A DNA stretch of 64,000 bases from Beijerinckiaceae bacterium (GTDB lineage: Bacteria; Pseudomonadota; Alphaproteobacteria; Rhizobiales; Beijerinckiaceae). Below the pieces are notes generated by a model. It ran no database searches and was not told the DNA's origin. It saw nothing but the letters and a program-made list of their open reading frames with translations. The number at the start of each line of letters is the position of its first letter. The stretch's first letter is position 1. This document shows positions 14,371 to 33,063 of the stretch, one piece after another. The stretch is taken from the NCBI GenBank assembly GCA_027532775.1, contig JAPZTO010000001.1, forward strand, positions 682,001-746,000, written 5' to 3'. The position numbers and the translations under genes are program-made.

Positions 14371-16254
14371 ATGACCAGGCCTCGCAAGACAATGATGCGG
14401 ATGGGAGCTCGCCTTGCCGGGCTGGCGATGCTCGGCCTGGTCGGCGCCGGGCTGCCGGCTGCAGCCCAGACGATCGAATGGCACGTCATCAACCGGTTCC
14501 GGCTTTTCACCGAGCGCTCGGATTTCGAGCGGCACGCGCAGGCTGCCGCCGGCCGATCCTCGATCCTCGAAACGGAACGCGCGCTCTCGGCCGGATCCCG
14601 CGAGGGCTGGGCCGCCGCCATGCTTGGCCGGACCTGCCTGAAGGCAGGCGGCAACGAGATTTCCGGGACATGCCGGCGCGACGGCGTCCAGGAATCCTAT
14701 CTCACCCCGGCCAGCTTTCCGATCCGCCTCACGTTCCTCCCTGCCGGCACGGCGGGAGCAGCCTGCCGCTGGATCTTCCGCGATCTTGCGACGGGCACGC
14801 GGGAAGAGGTGCAGGGCCCCTGCCAGGGCCTCGAACGGCGCATCGCCGCGGACCGTCGACTCGCGGTCAGCGTGGCCGATGCCGCGACGCCAAGCCTGAT
14901 CCTCGCGACGACCGACATTGCGGTACGGCATGTTCTGATGGCCGGGCTGGGGGATTCGATCGCCTCGGGCGAAGGCAATCCGGACCGGCCGGTCCGGCTG
15001 TCGCCGAACCGGGCCATGTGCTTTGACCGGTTCTTCTCCAACCGCGAATACTGGCGTCCGAGCCGGGAAGGGTACGCGCTTCGCACCGCCTGCCCGGCCA
15101 ATCCCGGCGAGGCCTCGACAGACGAGGAAAGGCGCGCTTGGGGCACGCGAGCGGCACGTTGGACAAGCCCCGCCTGTCATCGATCGCTCTACAGCTACCA
15201 GATGCGCGCCGCGCTGGCCCTGGCGATCCAGAATCCCGACAGCGCCGTCACTTTCGTGCCGCTCGGCTGCTCGGGCGCGACGATCGAGGAGGGCATCCTG
15301 AAATCGCGCAAGGCCCGCGAATTCTATAACGGGCAGACGATCGTCCAGTCACAGATCTCGCTGATCGACCGCTATGTCCTCGATGCGGGCCGGCCCTTCG
15401 ACGCCATCCTGCTGACGATCGGGGCGAACGATATCGGGTTTTCCGGCCTTGTCGCCGACATCATGCTGCAGCCGGGCAAGGAGCGCGAGATCTTCGAGGC
15501 TGCGGGGCTTGTCACCAGCGTCAGCCAGGCCGAGCGCGCGCTCGCCCGGGTGCTCCGCCCGAATTTCGAAACCTTGCGCCGACGGCTCGCCCCGGCGATT
15601 GCAGGGCGCGATCTCGGCAATGTCATCTACACGATCTACGGCAATCCGGCCCGCCGCGATGCCAGCCGGGCCTGCCCGAGTTCACGACACGGGTTCGATG
15701 TGCATCCGGGATTCGGGGTCGATGGCGCGAAAGCGGCCGATGCCGTCCGTTTCGTCGACACCACATTCTTCCCTGCCCTGAAGGACCTTGCCCGCTGCGC
15801 GCCCTCGACCGGCTGCACCGGCCCGGACAGCCGGGCGATGACCTTCGTCGACCGGCATCAGGACGCTTTCGCACAACATGGCTTCTGCGCCACCGGAAGC
15901 GACGATCCGGAATTCGACCGCCAATGCTTCCGGACGGACGGTCGATCCTTCGCAACGTCTCCCCCGCCGGAAACCAGCGCACTGGCCGGCGCCTGTGCCG
16001 GGCGCGAGGGCGAGTTCCGGCCCTTTGCCTCGCGGCAACGCTGGGTGAGGACCGCCAATGACAGCTATTTCGCAGCCATGACCTATCCGGACGAGTTCCG
16101 GCGGCTCGCAGGCGACCTGCATGACCCGATCTGGGGCGCGACCAGCGCTGTCTATGGCGGGGCGATCCACCCCACCGCCGAGGGTCATGCCGCGATGGCA
16201 GATGCGGCCCTGGCCGATCTTGCCCGGCGCCTCGGCATGAAGGGCTGGCCTTAA
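14371..16254 (+). CDS. Secreted SGNH/GDSL (SEST-like) hydrolase
   Basis: 627 residues. ATG at 14371 (MTRPRKTMMRMG) is preceded by GAGGAG and gives a typical Sec signal peptide with cleavage near AAAQ-T (about residue 33). After a 150-residue N-terminal region with several cysteines comes the catalytic domain: block I GLGDSIASGEGN with nucleophile Ser195, FVPLGCSGATIEEG, block III TIGANDIGFSG, and block V IHPTAEGHAAMA with His600. The GDSxxSGEG form and large inserts rich in Cys pairs resemble the Streptomyces SEST-like esterases. Likely substrate is an ester of a plant or lipid compound outside the cytoplasm. Placement next to hydroxycinnamate genes suggests possible feruloyl ester release, which is only inference. 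Confidence 0.85.
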   Translation: MTRPRKTMMRMGARLAGLAMLGLVGAGLPAAAQTIEWHVINRFRLFTERSDFERHAQAAAGRSSILETERALSAGSREGWAAAMLGRTCLKAGGNEISGTCRRDGVQESYLTPASFPIRLTFLPAGTAGAACRWIFRDLATGTREEVQGPCQGLERRIAADRRLAVSVADAATPSLILATTDIAVRHVLMAGLGDSIASGEGNPDRPVRLSPNRAMCFDRFFSNREYWRPSREGYALRTACPANPGEASTDEERRAWGTRAARWTSPACHRSLYSYQMRAALALAIQNPDSAVTFVPLGCSGATIEEGILKSRKAREFYNGQTIVQSQISLIDRYVLDAGRPFDAILLTIGANDIGFSGLVADIMLQPGKEREIFEAAGLVTSVSQAERALARVLRPNFETLRRRLAPAIAGRDLGNVIYTIYGNPARRDASRACPSSRHGFDVHPGFGVDGAKAADAVRFVDTTFFPALKDLARCAPSTGCTGPDSRAMTFVDRHQDAFAQHGFCATGSDDPEFDRQCFRTDGRSFATSPPPETSALAGACAGREGEFRPFASRQRWVRTANDSYFAAMTYPDEFRRLAGDLHDPIWGATSAVYGGAIHPTAEGHAAMADAALADLARRLGMKGWP

Positions 16255-16264: not shown

Positions 16265-17206
16265 TCAGCGCGGGCCGACCAGATAGTCCTTCCGCAGCAT
16301 GCAATGCACGCCCTTGTGCTGGTTGACCGTCTGCGTGATCCGCAGATCCGCCGTGATCGAGCAGAGCCCGTAGGCCTGTTCGCGCGTCAGGCCCGTCCGC
16401 TCCACAACCAGCGCAATCATGTCGCGCAGGGCCTTCTCGGCACATTTGTCGAGATCGGGGTCCATGCCGCAGGTGATGACATGGGTCGGCGTTTCGGCGC
16501 GCGGATAGGTGAAACGCAGATCCTTCCGGACGATGAACTCGAAGGTGCCGGCAAGCGCCGTCTCGATGGCCGTGACATTGACCTCGCCATCGCCCTGCAG
16601 GGCATGGCCATCCCCACAGGAGAAAAGCGCCCCCTCGACAAAGACCGGCAGGTAGAGCGTCGTCCCGGCCACAAGTTCCTTGTTGTCGATGTTGCCGCCG
16701 AAGGCGCGGGGAATGATCGAGGTGCAGCGCCCCCAAGCCTGCGGCGGGGCAACGCCCATGACGCCGAAGAAAGGGGCCAGCGGCAATTCGAGCCCCCAGG
16801 GCATGGTGCCGATCATGCGTTTCGCATCCAGCGCGACATGCATCAGGTGATAGGTCGGGAAGTCATCCGGCAGGGTGCCGGCCAACGGGCGGTTGAAATT
16901 GAAGCCCCAATCCTGATGCAGGCCGATCTCGCGGATCCGCACCTCGAGGACATCCCCCGGGGCGGCGCCCTCGACATGCACCGGTCCTGTCAGGATATGC
17001 GGGCCGAAAGGCAGGCCAACCTGCGCCGCATGGATCGCGTGGAGTTCCGGCGGCACGTGGAAGCCGGGCGGCGGAAGCACCTCTCGCGTGCCGGAAACAC
17101 TGCTGATCCGTACGGTCGAACCGCTGGGGACGCGGAGGGCCGGTGCCAGACCGGCATCAAAATAACCCCAATGCGCGGTTTCGGGAGAGGCCTTCAGTTC
17201 GAACAT
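16265..17206 (-). CDS. Acetamidase/formamidase family amidohydrolase
   Basis: 313-residue FmdA/AmdA-family enzyme that hydrolyses short amides to acid and ammonia in the cytosol. ATG at 17206 with AAAGGA upstream gives MFELKASPETAHWGYFD; the longer open frame is rejected. Family landmarks: HILTGPVHVEGAAPGDVLEV, DWGFNFNRP, the metal/substrate motif CGDGHALQGDGEVNVTAIE, and DLRITQTVNQHKGVHCMLRK at the C terminus. It converges on the esterase gene (10-base gap) and diverges from the LOG-family gene, so it has its own promoter in the 101-base gap 17207-17307. It may release ammonia from an amide produced by the neighbouring amidohydrolase operon, but no direct link is visible. Confidence 0.92.
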   Translation of the reverse strand: MFELKASPETAHWGYFDAGLAPALRVPSGSTVRISSVSGTREVLPPPGFHVPPELHAIHAAQVGLPFGPHILTGPVHVEGAAPGDVLEVRIREIGLHQDWGFNFNRPLAGTLPDDFPTYHLMHVALDAKRMIGTMPWGLELPLAPFFGVMGVAPPQAWGRCTSIIPRAFGGNIDNKELVAGTTLYLPVFVEGALFSCGDGHALQGDGEVNVTAIETALAGTFEFIVRKDLRFTYPRAETPTHVITCGMDPDLDKCAEKALRDMIALVVERTGLTREQAYGLCSITADLRITQTVNQHKGVHCMLRKDYLVGPR

Positions 17207-17307: not shown

Positions 17308-17898
17308 ATGCAGACAGAAGCTCCCCGCCCGATCCGGTCCATCGCCGTCTTCTGCGGCTCGAATACCGGCCTCGGCGAAACCTATATCGAGGCCGCAAAA
17401 GCCCTCGGGCAGGCGATCGGCGCGCGCGGGCTGACGCTGGTCTATGGCGGCACCAACAAGGGATTGATGGGCCTGCTGGCCGATGCCACCCGCGCAGCAG
17501 GTGGGCATGCGCATGGTGTCATTACGCAGCGTCTCGCCGATCGCGGGCATCTGCATCTGGACCTCGATGCCAGCGAGATTGTCGGCTCGATGCGGGCGCG
17601 GAAAGCACGCATGGCGGAACTGGCGGATGCCTTCATCGCCCTGCCCGGCGGGATCGGGACGCTGGAGGAATTCATGGAGATCTGGACGCTGAACCAGCTC
17701 GGCGAGATCGACAAGCCTGCCGGGTTGCTCGACGTGGCAGGATATTACCAGCCCTTCCTCGCCTTCATCGACCACATGATCGGCCAGAGGTTCCTGCCGG
17801 CGGAACACCGGAACGGCATCGTGGTCGAGCCCGAGCCGGGCCGGCTGATCGACGGGTTGATGACCTTCCGGAAGGTTACGGTTCCGAAGTGGATGTGA
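17308..17898 (+). CDS. LOG-family protein (cytokinin riboside monophosphate phosphoribohydrolase type)
   Basis: 196-residue Rossmann-fold protein of the TIGR00730/LOG family. ATG at 17308 gives MQTEAPRPIRSIAVFCGSN. Diagnostic residues are intact: Arg-Lys in MRARKARM (about 98-99) and the PGGIGTLEE loop (about 113-121). The family releases free base from nucleoside 5'-monophosphates (AMP, cytokinin nucleotides). Its 3' end overlaps the convergent LysR gene by 23 bases, so the two transcripts are antisense at their ends. Proximity to a presumed base- or hydantoin-degrading operon is suggestive, but LOG genes are widespread with unrelated neighbours. Confidence 0.9.
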   Translation: MQTEAPRPIRSIAVFCGSNTGLGETYIEAAKALGQAIGARGLTLVYGGTNKGLMGLLADATRAAGGHAHGVITQRLADRGHLHLDLDASEIVGSMRARKARMAELADAFIALPGGIGTLEEFMEIWTLNQLGEIDKPAGLLDVAGYYQPFLAFIDHMIGQRFLPAEHRNGIVVEPEPGRLIDGLMTFRKVTVPKWM

Positions 17899-18799
17899 CC
17901 GGCGGTCCTGTGAAGCGCCGGCCGAGTTGCTCCGCGAACTTGGCCGCGGCCACGGGCAGGGCCCGGCCGCGGAGCTGCCCCATGGCCAGCCTTGCGGGCG
18001 GCATGTCGCGCAGGTCGACCGGGCGCGAGACGAGGCCATGGCGCTCCTTCAGGGTGGCCGGCGCGCCGACCTCGATCTGGAAGGTGATGGCCGGTTCGAA
18101 GCGCACGTAATTGCGCAGGAATTCGAAGGAATTCGATTCGACCACCGCCTCGAACCGGAAGGAACTGCGCGCCGTGGCTTCGTCGAGAAGCTGGCGCCCG
18201 CTATAGCTTGGATCGGGCAGAGCCAGCGGATAGACCGCGCAGTCCCGCAGGCGGAGGCTGGGCCTTCCGGCCAGCGGATGATCGGCCGCCATGATAGCCA
18301 CGACCCGCTGCTCGGCCGAGGCCAGGACCTGGAAATCCGCCATGACCGAAGGCCGGAACACCATGGCGAGATCGACCTCGAACTCCGCCAGCGCGCGCAG
18401 GGCATCGGCATGGTCGCGGACCTTCACCTCGAACTCGACCAGCGGGAACTCGTGCCTGTACGCGGCGATGACGCTCGGCAGCAGCTCATAGGCCAACGCC
18501 TGGCTGCAGGCGATCGAGACCGTGCCGCGCCGGAACCCGGAGAGATCCTCGATCTGCGAGCGGACACGGCTCATATCCGCAAGCTGGGTCCGGATATGGC
18601 GGATCAGCAACTCGCCGGCGGCATTGAGCCGGACGCCGCGCGGCAGACGCTCGAAAATCGGCGTGCCCAGCTCGTCCTCGATATCCTGGATCCGCCGGTT
18701 CAGGGCGGAAGCCGTCAGGTTGAGCCGCTCGGCCGCGCGCCGGATCGAACCGACGCGGGCGACCTCGTCGACATAGTTGAGGAGGCGCAGATGCTTCAC
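17876..18799 (-). CDS. LysR-type regulator of the amidohydrolase/ABC operon
   Basis: 307 residues. GTG at 18799 is chosen because it gives the standard LysR N terminus VKHLRLLNYVDEVARVGSIRR; the open frame continues upstream through the divergent gene and cannot be real there. The winged HTH runs to about residue 60 (AAERLNLTASALNRRIQDIE), followed by a two-lobed inducer-binding domain to about residue 290. Divergent from the binding-protein gene at 18914 across a 114-base gap that holds an imperfect inverted repeat (18820-18852), so it is probably the operon's activator. Its 3' end overlaps the LOG-family gene. Confidence 0.9.
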   Translation of the reverse strand: MKHLRLLNYVDEVARVGSIRRAAERLNLTASALNRRIQDIEDELGTPIFERLPRGVRLNAAGELLIRHIRTQLADMSRVRSQIEDLSGFRRGTVSIACSQALAYELLPSVIAAYRHEFPLVEFEVKVRDHADALRALAEFEVDLAMVFRPSVMADFQVLASAEQRVVAIMAADHPLAGRPSLRLRDCAVYPLALPDPSYSGRQLLDEATARSSFRFEAVVESNSFEFLRNYVRFEPAITFQIEVGAPATLKERHGLVSRPVDLRDMPPARLAMGQLRGRALPVAAAKFAEQLGRRFTGPPVTSTSEP

Positions 18800-18819
18800 G
18801 GGGATCTCATCCAAGCGGT

Positions 18820-18852
18820 GCTTTTTTCGAACAGGTCTGGCAAGAAATAAGC
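18820..18852. promoter_or_regulatory. Candidate LysR operator in the divergent gap
   Basis: Imperfect inverted repeat GCTTTTTTC (18820-18828) / GAAATAAGC (18844-18852), 8 of 9 positions symmetric, spacer of 15 bases. It lies 20 bases before the LysR start and about 60 before the binding-protein start, where LysR regulators usually bind. No convincing sigma70 promoter could be assigned by eye. Confidence 0.5.
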
Positions 18853-18913
18853 AGAAGACGGCATCGGTCAACTCCCCTAGCGTCCCCTGCGGTCTGAACA
18901 GGGGATGGCTGAC

Positions 18914-19978
18914 ATGGCATCGGATGACGCAGCACGGATTTCGCGAAGGGTTTTCGGCCTCGGTCTGGGCGGTGCCGCGCTGGCATCGACGCTGCCGCGC
19001 CCGGCCATCGCCCAATCGCTCACGCGGCTGAAAATGGTGCTGAACTGGCGCTATCAGGGGCCGCAGGGCTGGTTCTTCCTCGCCGAGGATCGCGGATATT
19101 TCCGCGAGGCCGGGCTCGAGGTCACGATGGACCAGGGCAACGGTTCCGGCGCTGCGGTCGGCGCGGTGGCCTCGGGCTCCTACGATCTCGGCTTCGGCGA
19201 CATCAACGCGCTGATCCAGCTCGTGGCGAAGGGCCCTGCAGGCGGCAATACGCCGCTCGCCATCTCGGCGCTCTACAACCGCCCGCCCTTTACCATCGCC
19301 GTCAAGGCGGACGGGCCGATCAAGACGCCGAAGGATTTCGAGGGCCGCACCCTCGGCGGGCCGGCCAATGATGGCGCGCTGAAATTGTTCCCGGCCTTTG
19401 CCAAGCAGGTCGGGATCGACCCGGCCAAGGTGCAGATCACCAACATGCAGCCGAACCTGCGCGAGCAGATGCTCCAGCGCGGACAGGTGGATGGCGTGTT
19501 CGGCTTCGTCAACACGATCCGCTTCTCGGCCAAGCTGGTCGGGATCGATCCGGACAAGGATTTCCGGTTCATCAATTACGGCGATTTCGGCATGGACCTC
19601 TATTCCAATGCGGTGATTGCCTCGCGCAAGCTCGTCAACGAGAACCCGGGTGCCCTGAAGGGGCTGCTGGCGGCGATCAACAAGGGCCTGAAGGATACGC
19701 TGAAGGACCCCGATGCCGCCGTCGAGGCCGTGGCCAAGCGCGAGCCGCTGATCAACAAGGTCGTCGAGAAGGAGCGCCTTATCGCAACCCTGGCCGACGA
19801 GATGAGCCATCCCGAACTCGCGAAGCTGGGCCTTGGCGAAATCGACGATGCCCGTTTTGCCAAGTCGATCGGCATCGTCGTCGAGGCGGATGGCCTGCCG
19901 CGCAGCCCGGCACCGGGCGAGATCTTCAGCCGCGCCTATCTGCCGCCGGCCGCCGATCGCATCACCAAGCTGCTCTGA
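18914..19978 (+). CDS. NitT/TauT-type ABC substrate-binding protein 1, Tat-exported
   Basis: 354 residues from ATG 18914; an in-frame ATG at 18905 is possible, but AGGGG abuts it directly and is better spaced for 18914. A twin-arginine signal (ISRRVFGLGLGGAALAS) ends near AIAQS. The mature protein belongs to the NMT1/SsuA/TauA-like group: LNWRYQGPQGWFFLAEDRG, a DLGFGDINALIQ strand, and a C-terminal lobe ending FSRAYLPPAADRITKLL. First gene of the ten-gene operon, 15 bases before the SDR. It is a paralogue of the binding protein at 23953 (same xW(R/K)YQG and GFGDxNAxIQ elements), which carries a Sec signal instead. Confidence 0.9.
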   Translation: MASDDAARISRRVFGLGLGGAALASTLPRPAIAQSLTRLKMVLNWRYQGPQGWFFLAEDRGYFREAGLEVTMDQGNGSGAAVGAVASGSYDLGFGDINALIQLVAKGPAGGNTPLAISALYNRPPFTIAVKADGPIKTPKDFEGRTLGGPANDGALKLFPAFAKQVGIDPAKVQITNMQPNLREQMLQRGQVDGVFGFVNTIRFSAKLVGIDPDKDFRFINYGDFGMDLYSNAVIASRKLVNENPGALKGLLAAINKGLKDTLKDPDAAVEAVAKREPLINKVVEKERLIATLADEMSHPELAKLGLGEIDDARFAKSIGIVVEADGLPRSPAPGEIFSRAYLPPAADRITKLL

Positions 19979-19993
19979 GCCGGAAGCGCGATC

Positions 19994-20788
19994 ATGGATC
20001 TGAAACTGAATGACCGGGTGGTGGTGATCACCGGCCCCGCCAAGGGCATGGGTGCGGCGATCACCCGCGCCTTCGCGGCGGAAGGCAGCCGGCTCGCCCT
20101 GCTCGGGCGCGACATCGCCGCCATCGAGCCTGTGGCCAAGGAAGTGCGGGCGAAGGGCGCCGAGGCCATCGTGATCGCCTGCGACATCACCCAGGGCGCG
20201 GCCTGCGACACCGCCATCGCCGAGACCAGGGCGGCCTTCGGCGGGCGCATCGATGTGCTGGTGAATGTGGCCGGCGGGTCGGGCCCGATCGGCAAGACGG
20301 GCTGGGAGACAACCGAGGCCGAATTCGACGAGATCGTCGACCTCAACATGCGCGGCTGCTTCAACACGATGCGGGCCTGCCTGCCGACGATGATCGCCCA
20401 GCGCGACGGGAAGATCGTCAATGTCGGCGGAACCTTCGGCATGCGCGGCCGCGCCGGCCGCATGGCCTATTCCGCCTCGAAATGGGGCCTCCGCGGCATC
20501 ACCAAGAGCTTCGCGCTGGAGGCTGGGCCCTACAATATCAACGTGAATTGCGTGGCGCCCGGCATGGTCGACGGCCCGCGCTTCCGCGGCAAGGTCGTGC
20601 CGGAAATGGCGGCGCGGCTGGGGATCACGGAGGAGCAGGCGGTCCAGAAGCACGCGGCGGATTACGCGCTGCGTCGCGTCTCGACCGACGAGGATGTGGC
20701 GCATGCCTGCCTGTTCCTCGCTTCCGAGGTTTCCCGCCAGATCAGCGGCGTCGACCTGCCGGTCGATGGCGGCTGGGCGATGCTGTGA
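19994..20788 (+). CDS. SDR-family NAD(P) oxidoreductase
   Basis: 264-residue classical SDR. Cofactor loop TGPAKGMG (about 14-21), NVAGGSG near 90, catalytic YSASKWG (about 157-163) and a C-terminal SGVDLPVDGGWAM close to the usual signature. The cofactor loop differs from the common TGxxxGIG by having GPAKGMG. Gene 2 of the operon, seven bases before the next start. It could oxidise or reduce a hydroxyl or keto intermediate of the imported compound. Substrate not predictable from sequence. Confidence 0.88.
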   Translation: MDLKLNDRVVVITGPAKGMGAAITRAFAAEGSRLALLGRDIAAIEPVAKEVRAKGAEAIVIACDITQGAACDTAIAETRAAFGGRIDVLVNVAGGSGPIGKTGWETTEAEFDEIVDLNMRGCFNTMRACLPTMIAQRDGKIVNVGGTFGMRGRAGRMAYSASKWGLRGITKSFALEAGPYNINVNCVAPGMVDGPRFRGKVVPEMAARLGITEEQAVQKHAADYALRRVSTDEDVAHACLFLASEVSRQISGVDLPVDGGWAML

Positions 20789-20795
20789 GGCGATG

Positions 20796-22250
20796 ATGAG
20801 CACGGAGCCCTTCCTTGCCGACCTCATCCTGACCGGCGGCACTGTTGTCACCGGGATGAACCGCTACCGCGCCGACATTGCCATCAAGGACGGCCTGATC
20901 GCGCTGGTCGGCGAGCCCTCCGCCATGCCGGCGGCACGCGAGATTGTCGATGTCAGCGGCACGTTCCTGCTGCCGGGCGCAATCGACGTGCATGTCCATT
21001 TCCGGGAGCCGGGATACACGCACAAGGAAGACTGGCGGACCGGCAGTGCCGCCGCGGCGATGGGCGGCACGACCACCGTCTTCGAGATGCCGAACACGCA
21101 TCCGCCGACCCGCTCGGTGCGCGAATTGCGCCAGAAGCAGCAGGCGGCCGAGAAGTCGCATGTGGATTTCGGCATTTATGGCCTGCTTGCCGAGGACAAT
21201 ATCGATGAGCTGCAGGGGCTGATCGATGGCGGCGTGAACGCCTTCAAATGCTTCATGGGCAATACGTTCGGCAACCTGCCCTCCCCCTCCACCGGGGCGA
21301 TGCTGGAAGGGTTCGAGATCATCGCGCCGTCCGGGCTGCGGATCTCGCTCCATGCCGAGACGGCCTCGATCATGGCCTGGCGGCAGAAAAGGCTGATGGA
21401 AGCCGGGCGGAACGATCCGCTCGCCCATATCGCCGCCCGGCCCGCCATCGTGGCAGCGGAGGCGGTGAGCCGCGCGGCGGAACTCGCCGAATGGACCGGC
21501 GCGCGTGTTCATGTGCTGCATATCTCCTCGGCGGCCGAGTTGCGCCCGCTGGCCGATGCCAAGGCGCGCGGCGTCGAGATGACCGGCGAGACCTGCCCCT
21601 GCTACCTGCTGCTCGACAGCCGCGATTATGCGCGGCTCGGCTCGATCATCCGGGTCAATCCGCCGGTGCGCGAGGAGAGCGATTCCGTCGCGATCTGGCA
21701 GGCGCTGCAGAGCGGCGTCGTCGACATGATCGCCACCGACCATGCGCCGCATACGCCGGAGGAAAAGTCGAAGGCCGTGATCTGGGAGGCCGATTGCGGC
21801 TTCCCCGGCGTTGAGACGCAGATGCCCCTGATGCTGAACGAAGTGGCAAGGGGGCGCATCACCCTTGAGCATTATGTGAAAATCTCGGCCGAAAACCCGG
21901 CCCGTGCCTTCGGGCTCTGGCCGGCCAAGGGGCGGATCGAGGCCGGCGCCCATGCGGATATCGCTGTGGTGGACATGGCCCGAAAGGAAACGATCACCGC
22001 TGCGGCCCTGCATTCGCGCGGCAAGATCACGCCGTTCGAGGGCGTCGAGGTGACGGGCGTGCCGATCCACACGCTGGTGCGCGGGCGTTTCGTCCAGCGC
22101 GACCGCCGCCTTGTCGAGGAAACGAGCGGCTGGGGCCGGCAGGTCACCTCCATCCAGCGCATGCCGCCGGCCCGGCCGCGCAATACCGGCCAGACATTGG
22201 CCGCAGTCTTGCGAGGGCCGGACAGGACCAGCCCGGGAGGCCCATCATGA
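20796..22250 (+). CDS. Dihydroorotase/allantoinase-like cyclic amidohydrolase 1
   Basis: 484-residue metal-dependent cyclic amidohydrolase (AllB/PyrC/hydantoinase clade). ATG at 20796 is set by GAGG five bases upstream. Metal ligands are all present: His66 and His68 in DVHVHFREPG, carbamylated Lys151 in AFKCFMG, histidines in LHAET and LHISSA, and Asp315 in ATDHAPH. The family opens cyclic diamides such as allantoin, hydantoins, dihydropyrimidines or dihydroorotate. A second homologue lies at 28929. There is a C-terminal extension beyond the usual end (about 25 residues, QRMPPARPRNTG onward) rich in Pro and Arg. The stop overlaps the ABC ATPase start (ATGA). Which ring is opened is unknown; it is not next to other pyr genes. 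Confidence 0.9.
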   Translation: MSTEPFLADLILTGGTVVTGMNRYRADIAIKDGLIALVGEPSAMPAAREIVDVSGTFLLPGAIDVHVHFREPGYTHKEDWRTGSAAAAMGGTTTVFEMPNTHPPTRSVRELRQKQQAAEKSHVDFGIYGLLAEDNIDELQGLIDGGVNAFKCFMGNTFGNLPSPSTGAMLEGFEIIAPSGLRISLHAETASIMAWRQKRLMEAGRNDPLAHIAARPAIVAAEAVSRAAELAEWTGARVHVLHISSAAELRPLADAKARGVEMTGETCPCYLLLDSRDYARLGSIIRVNPPVREESDSVAIWQALQSGVVDMIATDHAPHTPEEKSKAVIWEADCGFPGVETQMPLMLNEVARGRITLEHYVKISAENPARAFGLWPAKGRIEAGAHADIAVVDMARKETITAAALHSRGKITPFEGVEVTGVPIHTLVRGRFVQRDRRLVEETSGWGRQVTSIQRMPPARPRNTGQTLAAVLRGPDRTSPGGPS

Positions 22251-23119
22251 ACGCCCAGCTCCGAGCCGCCGAAGCCGGCGGCGGGGCGGCTCCGACCGCT
22301 CCGTTCATCGAGTTCGAGAATGCCTCGATCACGTATGGCAAGGGCGCGCGTGCCGTGCAGGCGCTGGCGCCGACCTCGCTGAAGATCGCCGAGGGCGAGT
22401 TCGTCGCCCTTGTCGGGCCCTCCGGCTGCGGCAAGTCGACCATCCTGAAAATGGTCGGCGAACTCCTGAAGCCAAGCACGGGTTTCGTCTTCGTGGCCGG
22501 CCGCGAGATCGGCGCGAACCCGATCCGGATCGGCATGGCCTACCAGAACCCGACCCTGCTGCCCTGGCTCAATATCCGCGACAACGTGATGCTGCCGCTG
22601 AAGATCGTGCCGCCCTTCCGGCAAGGCTTCCGGGCCAAGCGCAACAGCGAATTCAGGGACCGGGTCGAGACCTTGCTGAAGCAGGTCGGGCTTACCGGCT
22701 TTGCCGAGAAATATCCCTACCAGCTTTCCGGCGGGATGATGCAGCGCGCCAATCTCTGCCGCGCTCTGGTGCATGACCCGGACCTGCTGCTGCTCGACGA
22801 ACCCTTCGGCGCGCTCGACCAGTTCACCCGCGAGGAATTGTGGGCGGTCATGCAGGATCTCTGGCTGTCGAAGAAGCTCACAGTCATCCTCGTCACGCAT
22901 GACCTGCGCGAGGCGGCCTATCTCGCCAGCCGAATCTGCGTGATGAGCGCGCGGCCGGGCCGCATCCTCGACGACCAGATCGTCGAGCTGCCGCGTCCGC
23001 GCACGATCGACATGACCTTCCAGCCGGATTTCGTCGAACTGAACCAGAAGCTGCGCGCGATGATCGTCGGCGCGCGGGGCGGTACCGGCATTGTCAGCCA
23101 TCCGCCCGGCGCGGCCTGA
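22247..23119 (+). CDS. NitT/TauT-type ABC transporter ATP-binding protein
   Basis: 290-residue ATPase of the SsuB/TauB/NrtD group. Walker A GPSGCGKST (about 57-65), Q-loop MAYQNPTLLPWL, signature LSGGMMQRANLCRAL, Walker B LLLLDEPFGALDQ and switch His in VTHDLREA are intact. The start overlaps the preceding stop by four bases (ATGA), so translation is coupled to the cyclic amidohydrolase. It powers import with the permease at 23131; two binding proteins in the operon (18914, 23953) could both deliver to it. Confidence 0.95.
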   Translation: MNAQLRAAEAGGGAAPTAPFIEFENASITYGKGARAVQALAPTSLKIAEGEFVALVGPSGCGKSTILKMVGELLKPSTGFVFVAGREIGANPIRIGMAYQNPTLLPWLNIRDNVMLPLKIVPPFRQGFRAKRNSEFRDRVETLLKQVGLTGFAEKYPYQLSGGMMQRANLCRALVHDPDLLLLDEPFGALDQFTREELWAVMQDLWLSKKLTVILVTHDLREAAYLASRICVMSARPGRILDDQIVELPRPRTIDMTFQPDFVELNQKLRAMIVGARGGTGIVSHPPGAA

Positions 23120-23130
23120 GGAGGAACCCG

Positions 23131-23913
23131 ATGGAACGGATTCTCGACACCCTGCGGGAGAAAGGCGCTTCGACGGCGCTGATCCTCGGCTTCTTCGTGG
23201 CCTGGGAGCTTTTCTGCCTCGTGGCGAATATCTCCGACATCCTGCTGCCGCGCCCGACCCAGATCATCGCGGCCCTGGTGAAATTCTGGCCGGCAATCTG
23301 GCCGCATACCTACCAGACGCTCTACACCACGCTGGTCGGGTTCAGCATCGGGGTGGTGATCGGGCTGTTCCTCGGCGTGCTGATCGGCTCGTCGCGGCTG
23401 GCCTACGACACGGCCTATCCGCTGCTGGTCGGCTTTTCCTCGATCCCCAAGGTCGCGGTCGTGCCGATCTTCGTGCTCTGGTACGGCGCGGGCACGGTTC
23501 CAGCCATCCTGACCGCGATGATCATCTGCATCTTCCCGATCGTCGTGAATGTCGCCACCGGGATCGCCACGGTCGAGCCCGAGCTTGAGGATGTGATGAA
23601 GACGCTCAAGGCGTCGAAGCTCGACATTCTCTGGAATGTCAGCCTGCCGCGTTCGATGCCCTATTTCTTCGCCGCACTGAAAGTGGCGATCACCCTCGCC
23701 TTCGTCGGCTCGGTCGTGGCCGAGACCGTCGCTTCGAATAGGGGCATCGGCAACATGATGATGATCGCCTCTTCCAGCTTCAACGTGCCGCTGGTCTTTG
23801 CCGGCCTGTTCGTGCTCGCAGGGCTCGGCGTCACGCTCTACGTCCTGTTCTCGCTGATCGAACACCGGGTCACCGGCTGGGCCCACCGGAAGACCGATCT
23901 CGCTTCTCCCTGA
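23131..23913 (+). CDS. NitT/TauT-type ABC transporter permease
   Basis: 260-residue membrane subunit of the BPD_transp_1 superfamily, SsuC/TauC type, with about six hydrophobic segments. The cytoplasmic EAA-like loop is recognisable around ELEDVMKTLKASKLDILWNV followed by SLPRSMPYFFAALKVAI. Start ATG at 23131 with GGAGGAA ahead; 11 bases after the ATPase stop. Forms the channel homodimer for the NitT/TauT importer. Confidence 0.95.
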   Translation: MERILDTLREKGASTALILGFFVAWELFCLVANISDILLPRPTQIIAALVKFWPAIWPHTYQTLYTTLVGFSIGVVIGLFLGVLIGSSRLAYDTAYPLLVGFSSIPKVAVVPIFVLWYGAGTVPAILTAMIICIFPIVVNVATGIATVEPELEDVMKTLKASKLDILWNVSLPRSMPYFFAALKVAITLAFVGSVVAETVASNRGIGNMMMIASSSFNVPLVFAGLFVLAGLGVTLYVLFSLIEHRVTGWAHRKTDLASP

Positions 23914-23952
23914 AAGATCTCGCCCCTCTCCCCGAAACCCCAGGAGAATTCC

Positions 23953-24996
23953 ATGCGTCGCCTTTTCCTCAAGACTGCTCTTGCCACTCTCGCCGCCGCC
24001 ACGTTCGGCCTCGCAGCGCCGGCCTCGGCCCAGAGCCCGACCAAGATCCGCTTCACGCTCGACTGGAAATACCAGGGCGTCCATTCCTGGTATTTCTATG
24101 CCAAGGAAAAGGGCTATTTCGCCGCCGAGGGCCTCGACGTGACGATCGACCAGGGCGAAGGCTCGGCCGCCACCGTCACGCGGATCATGTCCGGCGCCTA
24201 TGATGCCGGCTTCGGCGACATGAACGCCATCATCCAGCAGGCGGTGAACAAGCCGGGCGAAGCGCCGGTCATGGTCTACATGATCTACAACAAGGCGCCC
24301 TTCGCGATCATCCACAAGGCGGACAGCCCGATCAAGACGCTGAAGGACCTCGAGGGGCGCAAGCTGACTTCGCCGGCCGGTTCGGCCACGCACCGGCTGT
24401 TCCCGATCTTCGCCAAGCTGAACGGCCTTGATGCCAGCAAGGTCGAGGTGGTGAACATTGCCCCCTCGGTTCAGGAAATGATGATGGTGCAGGGCCAGGT
24501 CGATGGCGGCTTCGTCTTTACCGTCACCTCCTACATGAACCTCATCGGGATGCGCCTGAACCCCGACAAGGACTACAAGTTCATCATGTATTCCGATCAC
24601 GGCATCGAGGCCTATTCGAACGGCGTGATGGTCTCGCAGAAGATGATCCGCGAGAACCCGAAGGCCGTGGCCGGGCTGGTGCGCGCCGTCAACCGCGCCA
24701 TGCTTGAGCTGACCGCCAATCCGGCCGAAGCCGGCAAGGTGATGGCGCGGGTCGAGCCGACGGTGAATCCGGAGATCGAGGCCAAGCGCGTCGAGTTCAC
24801 CTACCGCGCCCATATGTTCACGCCGGAGACCGACCGGATCGGCGCGGGCGATGTCTCGGACGAGCGGATGGGCAAGGCGATCGCGCAGATCGTCGAGGCG
24901 TTCGGCCTGCCCAAGGCCCCGACCATGGCGGAAGTGTTCAACCGCTCCTTCCTGCCGCCGCTGGCCGAGCGCAAGCTCGCCACGCCGAAGAGCTGA
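23953..24996 (+). CDS. NitT/TauT-type ABC substrate-binding protein 2, Sec-exported
   Basis: 347 residues, ATG at 23953 after CAGGAGAATTCC. A Sec signal peptide ([21 protein letters not shown]) ends at ASAQ. The mature domain begins [18 protein letters not shown] and resembles that of the binding protein at 18914 throughout. It includes [12 protein letters not shown] and a C-terminal [13 protein letters not shown] that parallels FSRAYLPPAADR. The operon therefore holds two diverged receptors for a single ATPase-permease pair. They probably recognise related ligands, for example a parent compound and a degradation product. Confidence 0.93.
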
Positions 24997-25005
24997 GAGG
25001 AGGCG

Positions 25006-26454
25006 ATGCCAGCCATGGCCACCTTGCGCGAAATTACCGCCCGCCACGGGGTCGATGCGCGAGGCGGCTTCGCCGACCGCCGGCTGGTGCTCGAGGACGG
25101 CCGGATCCGCAGCATCGAGGCCATGCCGGAAGGCGCGGAGGATGTCGTTGTCCTCCCGGCCCTCGCCAATGCGCATGACCATGCCCGGCCACTCCGGACC
25201 AGCTCGATCGGTGGTTTCGGCAGGCCGTTGGAAATCTGGCTGCACCGGCTGGCGCTGATGGTGCCGGTCGATCCCTATCTTGCGGCCCTGGCGCCGCTCG
25301 CCCGGGCCGCTCTGGGCGGGCAGGGCAGCGTCATGGTCCATGCCACGCGGGCCATGGGACTGACCGACCTGCCGACGGAAGCCCGCGAGATTGCCCGCGC
25401 CGCCCGGGATGTCGGCGTGCGGATCGCCTACGGCATCGGCCTGCGCGACCAGAACCCGCTTGTCTATGGCGATCCTGCCGGCGTGCTGGCCGCGCTCGCC
25501 CCCGATGAACGCGAGGCGGTCAGCCAGCGTTTTCTCGGCCCCGTGCCGCCGATCCGCGAGCAACTGGCCCAGGTCGATGCGGTGGCCGAGGCGGTCGGCG
25601 GACCGATGATCGATGTGCAATACGGACCGAACGGACCGCAATGGTGCTCAGAAGCGATGTGGGAAGCCATCGCCGAGGCGTCGGCCCGCACGGGCCGGCG
25701 CGTGACGACCCATCTGTTCGAGACAAAATACCAGCGGGAATGGGCGGACCGGAACTATCCGGGCGGGCTGGTCCGGCGCTGGAAGGAAATCGGCCTTCTT
25801 TCGCCCCGGCTGACGCTCGCGCATTGCGTCTGGGCCCGTCCGGACGAACTGGACATGATTGCCGAGGCGGGGTGCATCATCACCACCAATGCCTCCTCGA
25901 ACCTGGCGCTGCGCTCGGGCATCGCGCCGGTTGCCGAGATGCTGCGGCGGGGCTGTCGTGTCGCGCTCGGCATTGACGGGCAGGCCTTCGACGAGGATGA
26001 CGATGCCTTGCGCGAGATGCGGCTGCTCTGGTCGCTCCATGCCGGCTGGGGCTTCGATACCGAGCTTGTCCCGTCGGATATCCTGCGGATGGCGCTGGAG
26101 AATGGCCGCATCGCCATTGGTGCGCCGGAAGGCGGCATGCTGAGCGAGGGCGCCGCCGCCGACCTCGTGCTGGTCGACCGGGCCGCGCTCGATGACGATG
26201 CCCTTATGCCTGTCGATCCGCTGGAGCTGATGTTCGCGCGGGCCAATCGCAGCCATATCCGCGAGGTGATCGTGGCCGGTCGCACCATCGTGAGCCGGGG
26301 GCGCGTGGTCGGCGTCGATCTCGACGCGGCGCATCGGGAACTCCGGGCGGCCTATCGCGCGGGCCTCGCCAGCCGCCAGGGTTTCGCGGCCGCCCTGCCC
26401 GCTTTCGAGGCGGCCGTGCGCGGGCATTACCTGCAGCGTCTCGGATGCTGCTGA
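25006..26454 (+). CDS. TRZ/ATZ-type amidohydrolase
   Basis: 482-residue amidohydrolase-superfamily TIM barrel. Metal sites: NAHDHARPL (His57, His59), THLFETKYQ, TLAHCVWARPDE and the aspartate of ALGIDGQAFDEDDD. The pattern places it in the subtype III deaminase/chlorohydrolase group (TrzA, AtzA/B, SsnA, guanine deaminase relatives), which removes ammonia or another leaving group from nitrogen heterocycles using one metal. ATG 25006 follows GAGAGGAGG at close spacing; ATG 25015 is an alternative. A typical small beta-sandwich domain is split between both ends. Four bases separate it from the next gene. Exact substrate unknown. Confidence 0.87.
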   Translation: MPAMATLREITARHGVDARGGFADRRLVLEDGRIRSIEAMPEGAEDVVVLPALANAHDHARPLRTSSIGGFGRPLEIWLHRLALMVPVDPYLAALAPLARAALGGQGSVMVHATRAMGLTDLPTEAREIARAARDVGVRIAYGIGLRDQNPLVYGDPAGVLAALAPDEREAVSQRFLGPVPPIREQLAQVDAVAEAVGGPMIDVQYGPNGPQWCSEAMWEAIAEASARTGRRVTTHLFETKYQREWADRNYPGGLVRRWKEIGLLSPRLTLAHCVWARPDELDMIAEAGCIITTNASSNLALRSGIAPVAEMLRRGCRVALGIDGQAFDEDDDALREMRLLWSLHAGWGFDTELVPSDILRMALENGRIAIGAPEGGMLSEGAAADLVLVDRAALDDDALMPVDPLELMFARANRSHIREVIVAGRTIVSRGRVVGVDLDAAHRELRAAYRAGLASRQGFAAALPAFEAAVRGHYLQRLGCC

Positions 26455-26458
26455 GCCG

Positions 26459-27484
26459 ATGCTGTTCCTGGGCGAGGCCGACATCGAGGCGCTGATCACC
26501 CTGCCCGACGCGCTCGCCTGTGCGGCGATGGCCTACCGGCTCCATGCCACAGGAAATGCTGCCGCGCCGGTCCGTGGCGATCTCCGCCATGGCGATCCGA
26601 AAGCCGGTTGCCTGATGCTGGGCGGCGCGCGCGGCGCCGAGGCGCTGACCATCAAGAGCAACGTCCATGCCTATCCGGACGGGCCGGAGGCGCCGCGCCT
26701 CTGGGGCAGCCTGCTGATCCTCTGGGACTGGCGGCGGGCGGAGCCGCGCGCGTTGCTGGCGGCGCGGGCCTTCAACGAGCATCGGACGGCCGCAGGTTTC
26801 GCCCTGGGGGCCGACCGGCTTGCCGCGCCCGATGCCGGCATCCTCGCCCTGTTCGGTGCCGGCAAGAGTGCTCCGCTGGCGCTGCGCTATCTCAAGGCTG
26901 TGCGGCCCTCGATCCGCGAGATCCGGCTGGCAGGGCGATCGCCCGGACGCGTCGAGGCGCTGGCGGCGCAGGCTGCGCTCTGGCCCGACCTCGCCGATAC
27001 CCGGATCCTCTGCGCGGCCTCGCCTGAGGCGGCGGTTGCGGGTGCGGATATCATTGCCACGGTAACGACGTCCGACCGGCCGGTCTTTCCCGGCGAAGCG
27101 GTGAAGCCCGGCGCCAGTATCGTGCTGGGCGGCGCCAATCGCCCCGATGCCCGCGAGGCCGATGACGCGCTGATGCGGCGCGCCGATCTCTATGTCGATG
27201 CCCGGCCGGGCGCGGCGGAGAAGGCCGGCGATATCCGGCTCGCCCTGGCCAGCGGCGCGCTGGTTCCGGAGCGGATCCGCGCCGAGATCGGCGCCGTACC
27301 CCAGGGCGGGTTGCCGCTTTCGGCGGGCAGCGATGTCCGCGTCTTCAAGTCGATGGGCCTTGCCATCCAGGATGTGGTGCTGGCCGAGCATCTTGCCGCG
27401 CGGGCCGAGGCGGAGGGGCGCGGCCTGCGGCTCGATCTTGCGACAGGGAAGGCCCTTGTGAACAGGAAGGCCCTTGCCTCATGA
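26459..27484 (+). CDS. Ornithine cyclodeaminase/mu-crystallin family protein
   Basis: 341 residues, ATG at 26459. The N-terminal OCD domain opens MLFLGEADIEALITLPDAL, with the usual KSNVHAYPDG and RAFNEHRTAAG strands. A Rossmann domain follows with ILALFGAGKSAPLAL (about 130), then TVTTSDRPVFPGEAVKPG and LGGANRPDAREAD. Members are ornithine cyclodeaminases, alanine dehydrogenases, ketimine or pyrroline-2-carboxylate reductases and tauropine-like enzymes. Within the operon it is tightly placed between two amidohydrolases (4-base gap, then ATGA overlap). A role as imine reductase or amino-acid deaminase on the opened product is plausible but unproved. Confidence 0.88.
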   Translation: MLFLGEADIEALITLPDALACAAMAYRLHATGNAAAPVRGDLRHGDPKAGCLMLGGARGAEALTIKSNVHAYPDGPEAPRLWGSLLILWDWRRAEPRALLAARAFNEHRTAAGFALGADRLAAPDAGILALFGAGKSAPLALRYLKAVRPSIREIRLAGRSPGRVEALAAQAALWPDLADTRILCAASPEAAVAGADIIATVTTSDRPVFPGEAVKPGASIVLGGANRPDAREADDALMRRADLYVDARPGAAEKAGDIRLALASGALVPERIRAEIGAVPQGGLPLSAGSDVRVFKSMGLAIQDVVLAEHLAARAEAEGRGLRLDLATGKALVNRKALAS

Positions 27485-28932
27485 CGGGCGGAACGCTGCT
27501 GATCAGGCAGGCCATGATCCTGACGCTCGATGCCGGCGACCGGATTTTCGATTGCTGCGACATCCTGATCCGCGACGGGGTGATCGAGGCCGTCGGCATG
27601 GTGCCTGCCGAGGCGAATGCAATGGCGGATCGGGTGATCGAGGCGCGCGGCATGCTGGCCGTGCCCGGGCTGGTGAACGCGCATATGCATTCACAATCCG
27701 GCACGATGGCCGGGTTCGGCGACCGGCTCAGCCATCCGGCTTTCATGTGGCTGACGCAGGCCCATACCTCCCGCCGGACGCCGGAGGAGATCCGCCTCGC
27801 CGTCTTGCTCTGCGCCGCGCAGATGCTGCAGAGCGGCACGACGGCGGCGATCGACCATTTCCCCGGCCAACGCTTCACGCTGGCGGAAATGGATGCCGTG
27901 CTCACCGCCTGGGCGGAGACGGGCATGCGGGTGACGCTCGGCATGCGGTTCTTCGACGGCGCGTTCAGCGACATCGTGCCCGCCGGGGCCGGGTTGCCAC
28001 CAGAGCTTTCCGCTGCTGCAGCCTCGGTGGACATTCTCCAGCCGCATCCCCTCGCGGCGTTGCGCGAGGAGATGCCGGACATCATCCGCCGCTGGCATGG
28101 CCATGCGGGCCGGATCGGCGTCTTTCCGGCGCCCTCCAACCCGGACCGGTGCAGCGACGAGGCACTGGTCTTCTGCGCCGAACTCGCGGAACAGCATGAT
28201 CTCGGCATCCATACCCATCTTCTCGAAACGCGGGCACAGGCCGAGATCGCCGCGCGGCGCTACGGCACCACCACGGTCGAGCATCTCGACCGGCTCGGAG
28301 TACTGTCCGGCCGGTGGTCCTGCGCGCATTGCATCTGGCTGAACGATGACGATATCGCGCGGATGGCCAGGCATGGCGTGGTGGCTGTTCATAATCCGGA
28401 GAGCAATGCCCGGATCGGCGCCGGCCGGATGCGCACGCCGGACCTGCTTGCGGCAGGCGTGCCCATTGCGCTCGGCACGGATGGTTCCGGCGCCAATGAC
28501 AACCTGATCCTGCAGGAAGCGATGCGTGCCGCCGCTCTGCTGCATCGCGCCGATCTGCCGGATCGCGCGCGCTGGGTCAGTGCGCGGGACGCGCTGCGTA
28601 TGGCGACGGAAGGCGGGGCGAAAGCGCTGCGCCGCGACGGCGAGATCGGAGTGCTGGCGCCGGGATTCCGGGCCGATCTCGCGCTTTACCGGCTCGACCA
28701 TCCGTGGTGGGTGCCGGTGAATGATCCCGTCGCGCAGATGGTCTTCGCCGAAACCGGCGCGGCGGTCTCGCATGTGCTGGTCGATGGCCATCTGCTTGTC
28801 GAGGACGGAAAGATCATTGCCTTCGATGCCGCCGGCGCATTGGCCGAGATCAGCGACCGGATCGACAGCATGAAGCGGCGCAATGCCGATCTCTTCGCCA
28901 TGGCCGAAGCAATTGCGAGGGCCGTCCCGTGA
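27481..28932 (+). CDS. TRZ/ATZ/8-oxoguanine-deaminase-like amidohydrolase
   Basis: 483-residue subtype III amidohydrolase. Ligands: NAHMHSQSG (His68, His70), GIHTHLLET, SCAHCIWLND and LGTDGSGANDN. The HTHLLET and AHCIWL strands resemble the SsnA/8-oxoguanine deaminase/S-adenosylhomocysteine deaminase/AtzB group. The start codon overlaps the OCD-family stop (ATGA) and its own stop overlaps the next start (GTGA), so three enzymes are made by coupled translation. Only distantly similar to the amidohydrolase at 25006, so the operon encodes two different deaminase-type steps. Substrate unknown. Confidence 0.88.
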   Translation: MTGGTLLIRQAMILTLDAGDRIFDCCDILIRDGVIEAVGMVPAEANAMADRVIEARGMLAVPGLVNAHMHSQSGTMAGFGDRLSHPAFMWLTQAHTSRRTPEEIRLAVLLCAAQMLQSGTTAAIDHFPGQRFTLAEMDAVLTAWAETGMRVTLGMRFFDGAFSDIVPAGAGLPPELSAAAASVDILQPHPLAALREEMPDIIRRWHGHAGRIGVFPAPSNPDRCSDEALVFCAELAEQHDLGIHTHLLETRAQAEIAARRYGTTTVEHLDRLGVLSGRWSCAHCIWLNDDDIARMARHGVVAVHNPESNARIGAGRMRTPDLLAAGVPIALGTDGSGANDNLILQEAMRAAALLHRADLPDRARWVSARDALRMATEGGAKALRRDGEIGVLAPGFRADLALYRLDHPWWVPVNDPVAQMVFAETGAAVSHVLVDGHLLVEDGKIIAFDAAGALAEISDRIDSMKRRNADLFAMAEAIARAVP

Positions 28933-30302
28933 CAGGCGGTCTCGTCGATCTCGTTCTGGCCGGAGGCACCCTCGTGACGCCAGAGGGGCTGAAGCCCGGC
29001 GCCGTTGCCGTGCAGGACGGGCGGATCGTCGCCATCGGCAACGACGCGGCGATGCCGCCGGCCCGCGAGGTCGTCGATACCGCGGGGTGCCATGTCATTC
29101 CCGGCGCGATCGACGTTCATGTCCATTTCCGCGAGCCGGGCTTTTCCTACAAGGAGACCTGGGCCAGCGCCACGCAGGCCGCTGCCATTGGTGGGGTGAC
29201 CACCGTGTTCGACATGCCGAACACCAACCCGCCCACGGCCGATGCCTCGGCTGTCCGTGCCAAGCTGGCGCTCGCTTCGGCGCAGGCTTTCGTCGATTTC
29301 GGCGTCTATGGCTATATCGGCGATAACAATCTCGACCAGCTTGCGCCGATGGCCGAGGCCGGGTCGGTGGCGTTCAAGCTCTATCTCGGCAGTGACAACC
29401 CGCTGGTGCCGTGCCCGAATGACGGTGCTGTGCTCGATGCGCTGGCCATCCTCGCGGAACTTGGCATCCGCTGCACCGTTCATGCCGAGAACACGCCGAT
29501 CCTCGCCTGGCGCGGTGCGAAACTGAAGGCTGCCGGCCGGCATGACCTCGCTGCCCATCTCGAGCAACATGCCGATATCGCCACGGTGGAGGCAGTGTCG
29601 CGGATCGCGCTGTTCTCGGAATGGACAGGCTGCCCGATCCATATCGCGCACGAGAATTGCCGGCATTCCCTGCCCCTGATCGCCGCCGCCAAGATGCGGG
29701 GGGTCAACATCACCGCCGAAACCTGCCCGCATTATCTCTATCTGAGCATGGAGGACGCCCCACGTGCCGGCGGTTCCGCGCTGCGGGTCAAGCCGCCGGT
29801 GCGGGAAGCCGGGCATGCCGGCCCGCTCTGGGATGCGCTGGCGAGCGGGGTGATCGACATGATCTCGACCGACCATGCCCCCCATGCCCCGGCGGAAAAG
29901 AAGCGCGCCTCGATCTGGGATGTGGCGCCGGGCTTTCCCGGGGTCGAGACCTCGATGCGACTGATGCTGACGGCCGTGCATGACGGCCGGATCACCCTGC
30001 CGGATTATGTGCGGATAGCCTGCGAGGCGCCGGCGCGCGCGTTCGGCCTTTTCCCGCAAAAGGGCAGCCTGCAGCCCGGCGCGGATGCCGATCTCGTGGT
30101 GATCGACATGAACCGGGAGGGCGTGATCCGCGGCGGGGACCTGCATTCGCTCGGGAATGTGACGCCTTTCGAAGGCTTCCGGACGCGCGGCCTGCCGGTC
30201 ATGACCTTCCTGCGCGGGACGCTGGTGGCAAAGGACGGGCAGATTGTCGCGCCGCCGGGCCTTGGGCGCCCGGTGCGGCCCCGGCGCCTCAGGGCCGGAT
30301 GA
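28929..30302 (+). CDS. Dihydroorotase/allantoinase-like cyclic amidohydrolase 2
   Basis: 457 residues from GTG at 28929, which overlaps the previous stop (GTGA). All metal ligands are present: His64/His66 in DVHVHFREPG, Lys150 in VAFKLYLGS, VHAENT, IHIAHEN and Asp315 in STDHAPH. It is a clear paralogue of the enzyme at 20796, keeping for example DVHVHFREPG, DMPNT/EMPNT and VTPFEG/ITPFEG, but it differs in the loop after the lysine (SDNPLVPCPND against NTFGNLPSPST), a region that shapes the substrate pocket. Its end overlaps the convergent DUF1850 gene by 14 bases. Last gene of the operon. Confidence 0.9.
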   Translation: MTGGLVDLVLAGGTLVTPEGLKPGAVAVQDGRIVAIGNDAAMPPAREVVDTAGCHVIPGAIDVHVHFREPGFSYKETWASATQAAAIGGVTTVFDMPNTNPPTADASAVRAKLALASAQAFVDFGVYGYIGDNNLDQLAPMAEAGSVAFKLYLGSDNPLVPCPNDGAVLDALAILAELGIRCTVHAENTPILAWRGAKLKAAGRHDLAAHLEQHADIATVEAVSRIALFSEWTGCPIHIAHENCRHSLPLIAAAKMRGVNITAETCPHYLYLSMEDAPRAGGSALRVKPPVREAGHAGPLWDALASGVIDMISTDHAPHAPAEKKRASIWDVAPGFPGVETSMRLMLTAVHDGRITLPDYVRIACEAPARAFGLFPQKGSLQPGADADLVVIDMNREGVIRGGDLHSLGNVTPFEGFRTRGLPVMTFLRGTLVAKDGQIVAPPGLGRPVRPRRLRAG

Positions 30303-32956: not shown

Positions 32957-33063
32957 GGCGGTCCCTGTTCATCTCGAAGGGGCTGGAAGAAGGTTCAAGC
33001 AGGGCAGGAAACCGCTGGCCTGTCTGGCCTGCGGTTCCCCATGCGCCGTGCCGGTGCGGAGGT

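Follow-up and report, generated by a model that had tools for sequence, protein, structure and literature searches.

What compound is taken up and broken down by the products of a ten-gene operon in the Beijerinckiaceae bacterium assembly GCA_027532775.1 (contig JAPZTO010000001.1)? The whole stretch analysed, called the window hereafter, spans 64,000 nucleotides of a genome of about 3.8 Mb. The operon occupies positions 18905-30302, where ten plus-strand genes follow each other, encoding a substrate-binding protein (SBP1), a short-chain dehydrogenase/reductase (SDR), an amidohydrolase (AH1), an ABC ATPase, a permease, a second binding protein (SBP2), a second amidohydrolase (AH2), an ornithine cyclodeaminase (OCD)-like protein and two further amidohydrolases (AH3 and AH4). 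The initial annotation regarded this set as unlike any described pathway and as distinct from the triazine route. Literature searches, covering open-licence PMC papers only, returned no gene-for-gene match, in line with the first claim. The second is weakened, since some relatives hold the gene for cyanuric acid hydrolase, AtzD, inside the operon, and the window genome encodes AtzD, the biuret amidohydrolase BiuH and an AtzE-family protein. The reading favoured here, to which an even chance is given, is that the operon serves the import and upper breakdown of an amino-substituted nitrogen heterocycle, along a route converging on cyanuric acid.

AtzD genes within and beside the operon

A genome scan with AH2 yielded 37 loci; the addition of the window, of 4 loci on plasmids and of 35 more stretches from genomes brought the comparison to 77 loci. 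After exclusion of 22 loci whose AH2 shared 90% identity or more with that of a retained locus, a non-redundant set of 55 remained. All counts refer to about 10 kb on each side of AH2, less at contig ends, and were obtained with identity floors of 40-60% and half of the query covered. AH3 was dropped as an anchor because, at E<=1e-90, it matched one genome only, besides the window's own, among 289 of the class.

An atzD gene is found in or beside the operon in 7 of the 55 loci, adjoining AH2 in six of them and lying between the AH1 and ATPase genes in the other. In G005, a genome of the window's genus, the gene run is SBP1-SDR-AH1-ATPase-permease-SBP2-AH2-AtzD-cupin-FmdA-flavin reductase, FmdA being an acetamidase/formamidase family protein. 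Similarly, AH2 is followed in Skermanella by a ring-opening amidohydrolase (AtzD), FmdA and a DUF3830 protein. The AtzD proteins of Skermanella, of the Rubrivivax operon, of G005 and of the window genome were compared with the NCBIfam cyanuric acid amidohydrolase model NF052395 and all four exceed its cut-off of 360, with 549.6, 522.7, 568.3 and 543.3 bits. The G005 protein scores 473 bits to solved cyanuric acid hydrolases, against 247 to barbiturase. The specificity residues R195, T321, R325, G345 and G346 (R-T-R-G-G, in the AtzD numbering given in PMC3758960, here shifted by one) are present in 13 of 13 AtzDs, including three pairs of near relatives. By sequence, the checked AtzDs carry the signature of cyanuric acid and not of barbiturate hydrolysis.

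No atzD gene is present within the window. The copy of the window genome belongs to a separate cluster on contig C17 (L069, positions 6729-15837), along with a BMP-type importer, BiuH, a second gene of the isochorismatase family and, in divergent orientation, an AtzE-family gene preceded by a small gene. Both BiuH (428.3 bits, cut-off 370) and the AtzE-family protein (697.9, cut-off 461) score above their NCBIfam thresholds; the biuret hydrolase reported as missing by the initial annotation is therefore encoded in this genome, on another contig. The second isochorismatase, taken from the copy of the cluster in G015, falls short of the biuret amidohydrolase cut-off (250.8 vs 370). None of the profiles tested was matched by the small AtzG-like protein from that copy or by a PuuD-like one encoded in G425. 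In locus L119, genes for allophanate hydrolase and for an AtzH-like protein are divergent to the AH2 operon. In G425, the genes between the atz cluster and AH2 include one for hydroxyisourate hydrolase (124.5 bits, cut-off 87.45) and a xanthine-dehydrogenase-like one, below cut-offs.

As a separate observation, the AH2 operon of L136, L108 and the Phreatobacter loci is flanked by a saccharopine-dehydrogenase-family gene and by a second, polyamine-type ABC importer; in seven genomes of this type (g40) AtzD is located about 19-51 kb from the operon.

Co-occurrence of AH2 and AtzD

The distribution of the two genes was evaluated at the level of genus and order; within the genus, AtzD was defined by PF09663 and AH2 by E<=1e-90. 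Of the 17 genomes in the window's genus, 10 have both genes, in adjacent positions in five of them, and seven have neither (Fisher 5e-5). Among 347 genomes in the order, 40 carry AH2 and 62 AtzD, with 32 carrying both against 7.1 expected, corresponding to an odds ratio of 36.9, uncorrected for shared ancestry. When counted by genus, 14 of the 18 AH2 genera have AtzD, against 3.6 expected. The two genes are on one contig and at most 60 kb apart in 13 of the 32 genomes with both.

An unrelated catabolic family, PF07287, found in 84 of the 347 genomes, was used as a control, and gave an odds ratio of 2.6 both with AtzD and with AH2. In addition, the link between AH2 and AtzD persists among the 263 genomes devoid of PF07287 (18 of 23). 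For these reasons, general catabolic breadth explains a little, but not most, of the association.

Conservation of the gene order

A search for the same gene order in other genomes, suggested by the initial annotation, was carried out; the order recurs in several genera, at about 50-100% protein identity, and the gene grouping is therefore not due to chance. A core of seven genes, SBP1-SDR-AH1-ATPase-permease-SBP2-AH2, was identified in other Alphaproteobacteria and in a Rubrivivax metagenome-assembled genome, where AtzD and DUF3830 are inserted in the core. It is complete and in order in Bosea vaviloviae (L024), Methylobacterium sp. DB0501 (L046) and Skermanella (L059), for example, while in Azospirillum AH1 is relocated behind FmdA, on the opposite strand. 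The Rhizobium- and Bradyrhizobium-type loci retain ATPase, permease, SBP2 and AH2, joined by a cytosine-deaminase-like enzyme, a GntR regulator and, in some of them, a gamma-glutamyltranspeptidase-like enzyme. Within the 55 non-redundant loci the ATPase and the permease were each counted 33 times, SBP2 30, SDR 21, AH1 20, SBP1 19, LysR 17, FmdA 14, the cytosine-deaminase-like protein 10, LOG 9 and DUF3830 9. AH2 itself ranges from 42 to 100% identity over these loci and many genera; the window protein and the AH2 of Rhabdaerophilum sp. SD176 share 95% identity. One match, on a Novosphingobium plasmid, has no annotation.

The presence of four amidohydrolases, as initially described, holds for the window and is confined to few genomes, the common core having two. 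OCD, AH3 and AH4 occur together in 8 of the 77 loci (the window, L019, L020, L036, L044, L022, L024 and L025), several other contigs ending too early to tell, and they are missing from Rhizobiales bacterium AFS063105 (L023), although 10 kb are present there downstream of AH2. On these grounds, the form with four amidohydrolases looks like a local extension of the two-amidohydrolase core.

A recurrent neighbour of AH2 is the DUF3830 protein, seen in L033, L050, L114, L115, L059 and other loci; the word DUF3830 was not found in the literature search.

Genes of the operon

Coordinates, Pfam matches (above curated cut-offs for all ten proteins) and recurrence of the order agree in placing a ten-gene operon where it was originally annotated. 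Neighbouring genes overlap by 4 bases at the AH1/ATPase, OCD/AH3 and AH3/AH4 junctions, and the remaining gaps measure 4-39 bases; from this spacing and from conservation, the ten genes are probably cotranscribed. A consensus scan detected no sigma-70-like site; terminator-like sites numbered 4, as compared with 5.0 in shuffled sequences.

The importer genes comprise SBP1 (18905..19978, PF09084, 128 bits), the ATPase (22247..23119, PF00005), the permease (23131..23913, PF00528) and SBP2 (23953..24996), about 44% identical to SBP1. An NMT1-type receptor, an ABC ATPase and a BPD permease are thus all present, as in NitT/TauT-type ABC importers, and both receptors are of the NMT1/THI5 type. A receptor relative, 44% identical, lies among urate genes in Defluviimonas, which is counted in favour of the route to cyanuric acid; others lie near urea/urease genes.

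AH1 (20793..22250) and its paralogue AH4 (28929..30302), 48% identical to each other, resemble allantoinases and hydantoinases. Both narrowly miss the allantoinase AllB cut-off (TIGR03178, 357.85 bits), with 355.6 and 340.4 bits; the nearest solved structures are 3hm7 and 1gkr for AH1 and the L-hydantoinase 1gkr for AH4. The metal ligands of cyclic amidohydrolases are HxH, Lys, His, His and Asp. The corresponding residues, H65, H67, K150, H185, H241 and D314, are invariant in 8 AH1s, and the same residues align in AH4.

AH2 (25015..26454, PF01979, with an alternative start ATG at 25006) and AH3 (27481..28932) are TRZ/ATZ-type aminohydrolases, 28% identical to each other. Neither reaches the NCBIfam equivalog cut-offs for 8-oxoguanine deaminase and N-ethylammeline chlorohydrolase (AH3, PRK08203, 277 vs 532 bits; AH2, 136 vs 609), and the solved structures nearest to AH3 are 3hpa and AtzA. 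The predicted structure of AH2 (pLDDT 88.9) is closest to the uncharacterised amidohydrolase 3lnp, adenosine (MTA/SAH) deaminases, AtzA, TrzN and isocytosine deaminase; since these are about 20-25% identical, the exact substrate is not readable from the fold. In both proteins the Glu, His and Asp of the catalytic Gln-Glu-His-Asp set of guanine deaminase, AtzB and NdmH, as given in PMC13054789, are kept, while at the position of the Gln AH2 has Pro and AH3 has Ser.

The SDR gene (19994..20788) matches PF00106/PF13561. The protein first described as OCD-like (26459..27484) belongs to the family PF02423 and is better named ketimine-reductase/mu-crystallin-like: it reaches 51.8 bits against a cut-off of 350 for ornithine cyclodeaminase (PRK07589), and aligns best with ketimine reductase/mu-crystallin (4bv8), with a common RPD-RE-DD stretch. 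An ectoine route was rejected, as this protein scores 95 against the EutC cut-off of 471.65 and no other ectoine enzyme is encoded among the ten genes.

Upstream genes and a conserved 51-base element

Three genes precede the operon. The acetamidase/formamidase-family gene reported nearby is indeed present (FmdA, 16265..17206, minus strand, PF03069, 122 bits vs 27); against the NCBIfam formamidase cut-off of 500 (NF045496), its product scores 70.9 and the Skermanella relative 76.5. Between it and the regulator lies a plus-strand LOG-type gene (17308..17898; TIGR00730, 170 bits vs 96.35), possibly encoding a nucleoside-monophosphate phosphoribohydrolase, which misses the cytokinin LOG equivalog cut-off (121.3 vs 300). 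Both the FmdA gene and the LOG-type one are part of the neighbourhood conserved around the operon. A tie of LOG to cytokinin degradation was also considered and abandoned, as literature titles on LOG yielded no such operon. The LysR-type gene (17876..18799, PF00126 and PF03466) is present as initially described; being divergent, on the minus strand, it does not head the operon transcript.

A conserved element of 51 bases (18816..18866, plus strand), detected by alignment and by a matrix, is located between LysR and SBP1 and may act as LysR operator or promoter. With a short anchor, the block was aligned for 23 loci, 20 of which are plainly alike, and the matrix was built on 15 of them, the window included. 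The window site scores 77.5 bits, against a best score of 7.2 in 20 shuffled 64-kb windows. The Azospirillaceae sites, two of the 15 in the matrix, reach merely 17.1 and 20.9 bits, and two weak sites (22.3 and 16.3) are found in L098. No NMT1 (xanthine/urate) riboswitch was found in the window, nor, at gathering scores, in seven related loci.

Comparison with known systems

The atrazine/cyanuric acid pathway of Pseudomonas sp. ADP (atzA-F, G, H) resembles the proposed one in that TRZ/ATZ-type aminohydrolases feed AtzD and in the LysR gene divergent from its atzD operon. It differs in the importer type and in SDR, AH1/AH4, OCD and FmdA, and there is no gene-for-gene match. The cyanuric acid cluster of Rhizobium leguminosarum (BMP importer, isochorismatase-family hydrolase, AtzD and a gene annotated as formamidase) is of the same type as that on the other contig of the window genome; unlike the operon, this type has no TRZ/ATZ aminohydrolase, SDR or AH1, and the cluster of the window genome forms an operon of its own in which the 51-base element was not found. 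The xanthine/urate (NMT1-motif) riboswitch operons that encode guanine/8-hydroxyguanine-deaminase-like enzymes, as described in PMC7373994, share an NMT1 receptor and a COG0402-type amidohydrolase, whereas the window operon has LysR beside it in place of the riboswitch. Finally, the N2,N2-dimethylguanine hydrolases/AtzB cluster described in PMC13054789 has in common with AH2 and AH3 the superfamily and three catalytic residues, and differs at the Gln.

Proposed function and alternatives

We infer from these data the substrate, the reactions, the order of the steps, the regulation and any roles of SDR, the OCD-like protein, FmdA and LOG. The imported compound would be an s-triazine, or a heterocycle of the oxidised or modified nucleobase type, taken up by one NitT/TauT-type importer served by two receptors. 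AH2, and here also AH3, would act as metal-dependent hydrolases that take off exocyclic amino groups, while AH1, and here AH4, would open cyclic amide or ureide rings. SDR, the OCD-like protein and FmdA are given no step in this scheme. AtzD would then open the last ring for nitrogen, from within the operon in some relatives and from the separate cluster with biuret hydrolase and the AtzE-family protein in the window genome. Control may be exerted by LysR, perhaps via the 51-base element. The families found fit the initial proposal, in which a molecule containing several C-N bonds is imported and hydrolysed step by step; the separateness from the triazine route is what has been weakened.

Several observations weigh against a route to cyanuric acid. 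AtzD is missing from the stretch compared in 48 of the 55 non-redundant loci, many of these stretches being incomplete, and in L048 the AH2 cluster is beside genes for BMP, BiuH and allophanate hydrolase, with no AtzD in the stretch compared. Eight of the 40 AH2 genomes have no AtzD at all. The order-wide association carries no correction for shared ancestry, and PF07287 is itself mildly associated with both genes, with an odds ratio of 6.8 for AH2 by genus. Within the genus, an AH2 paralogue (34-37% identity) is likewise limited to 7 of the 10 AtzD genomes, with a 30% hit in G006, a genome lacking AtzD, so that part of the pattern may reflect clade-wide gene content. The known triazine route offers no position for SDR, AH1, OCD or FmdA, and the identity of AH2 and AH3 to AtzA and AtzB amounts to only 24-29%. 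The 51-base element is weak in Azospirillum and Skermanella, and the matrix scan found it neither in the operons L050, L108, L119 and L136 nor in the AtzD cluster of the window genome (L069); because of the latter result, a 51-base element common to operon and cluster was rejected, and no shared regulon is shown.

A tentative alternative, to which a rather low probability is assigned, is the general scavenging of purine- or pyrimidine-derived ureides of the hydantoin, allantoin or oxopyrimidine type. AH1 and AH4 would be the main enzymes, the aminohydrolases would act on several related compounds and AtzD would be a mere frequent neighbour in nitrogen-scavenging islands. The scores of AH1 and AH4 just below the allantoinase cut-off, the urate and urea/urease genes near receptor relatives, and the two purine-related genes between the atz cluster and AH2 in G425 are consistent with it. 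However, neither ureidoglycolase nor carbamoylase is encoded among the ten genes, and AtzD directly adjoins AH2 in several genera.

A natural route, in which oxidised or modified nucleobases, such as guanine-oxidation products with hydantoin and triazine rings, are converted to cyanuric acid and handed to AtzD, is an unlikely but attractive possibility. In such a route LOG would release the bases held in ribotides, and opening of the hydantoin rings would fall to AH1/AH4. An oxidised or modified nucleobase is a tempting substrate because of the urate genes near relatives, of LOG and of the tendency of related enzymes towards nucleobases (PMC13054789 and PMC7373994). According to PMC3758960, cyanuric acid may form in oxidative DNA damage, and barbiturate hydrolysis was the one physiological process in which the AtzD family was known before triazine herbicides, although AtzD-family genes are as common as 62 in 347 genomes of the order. 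If true, the natural route would give cyanuric acid hydrolases a pre-industrial job.

A plain operon of recent origin for man-made triazines (melamine, ammeline, ammelide) is quite improbable. Two TRZ/ATZ aminohydrolases and the AtzD linkage would suit it, but the spread of AH2 over 55 loci does not look recent, and SDR, AH1 and FmdA would be superfluous. Catabolism of a thiamine-type pyrimidine, with FmdA taking acetamide from a 2-methylpyrimidine, is very unlikely, although no search aimed at thiamine-salvage genes was made: SBP2, an NMT1/THI5-type receptor, does match THI5 (E 1.3e-9) as well as the N-formyl-aminopyrimidine-binding protein (2.5e-8), but among solved structures its top match is a different ABC receptor (4nmy, 1e-16), sulfonate and taurine receptors match too, and the linked AtzDs bear the cyanuric acid signature. 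A conserved importer operon carrying or accompanied by AtzD offers, through two receptors and one aminohydrolase, a handle in the search for a natural upstream substrate.

Other features of the window

Directly downstream of the operon, and converging on it, lies a minus-strand TAXI-type TRAP transporter (30671-34029; DctM permease and NMT1_3 receptor), also present in the near relatives L019, L020, L036 and L044 at 63-96% identity. ARAGORN predicted a tRNA-Arg (ccg) at 36547-36642, for which Rfam is silent at the gathering score; the opposite strand carries an overlapping LysR-type gene (35696-36694). On the other side, the minus strand between 6171 and 11275 holds, as judged by eye, apparent genes for an acyl-CoA dehydrogenase, an SDR, an amidohydrolase-2-like protein and an acyl-CoA ligase.

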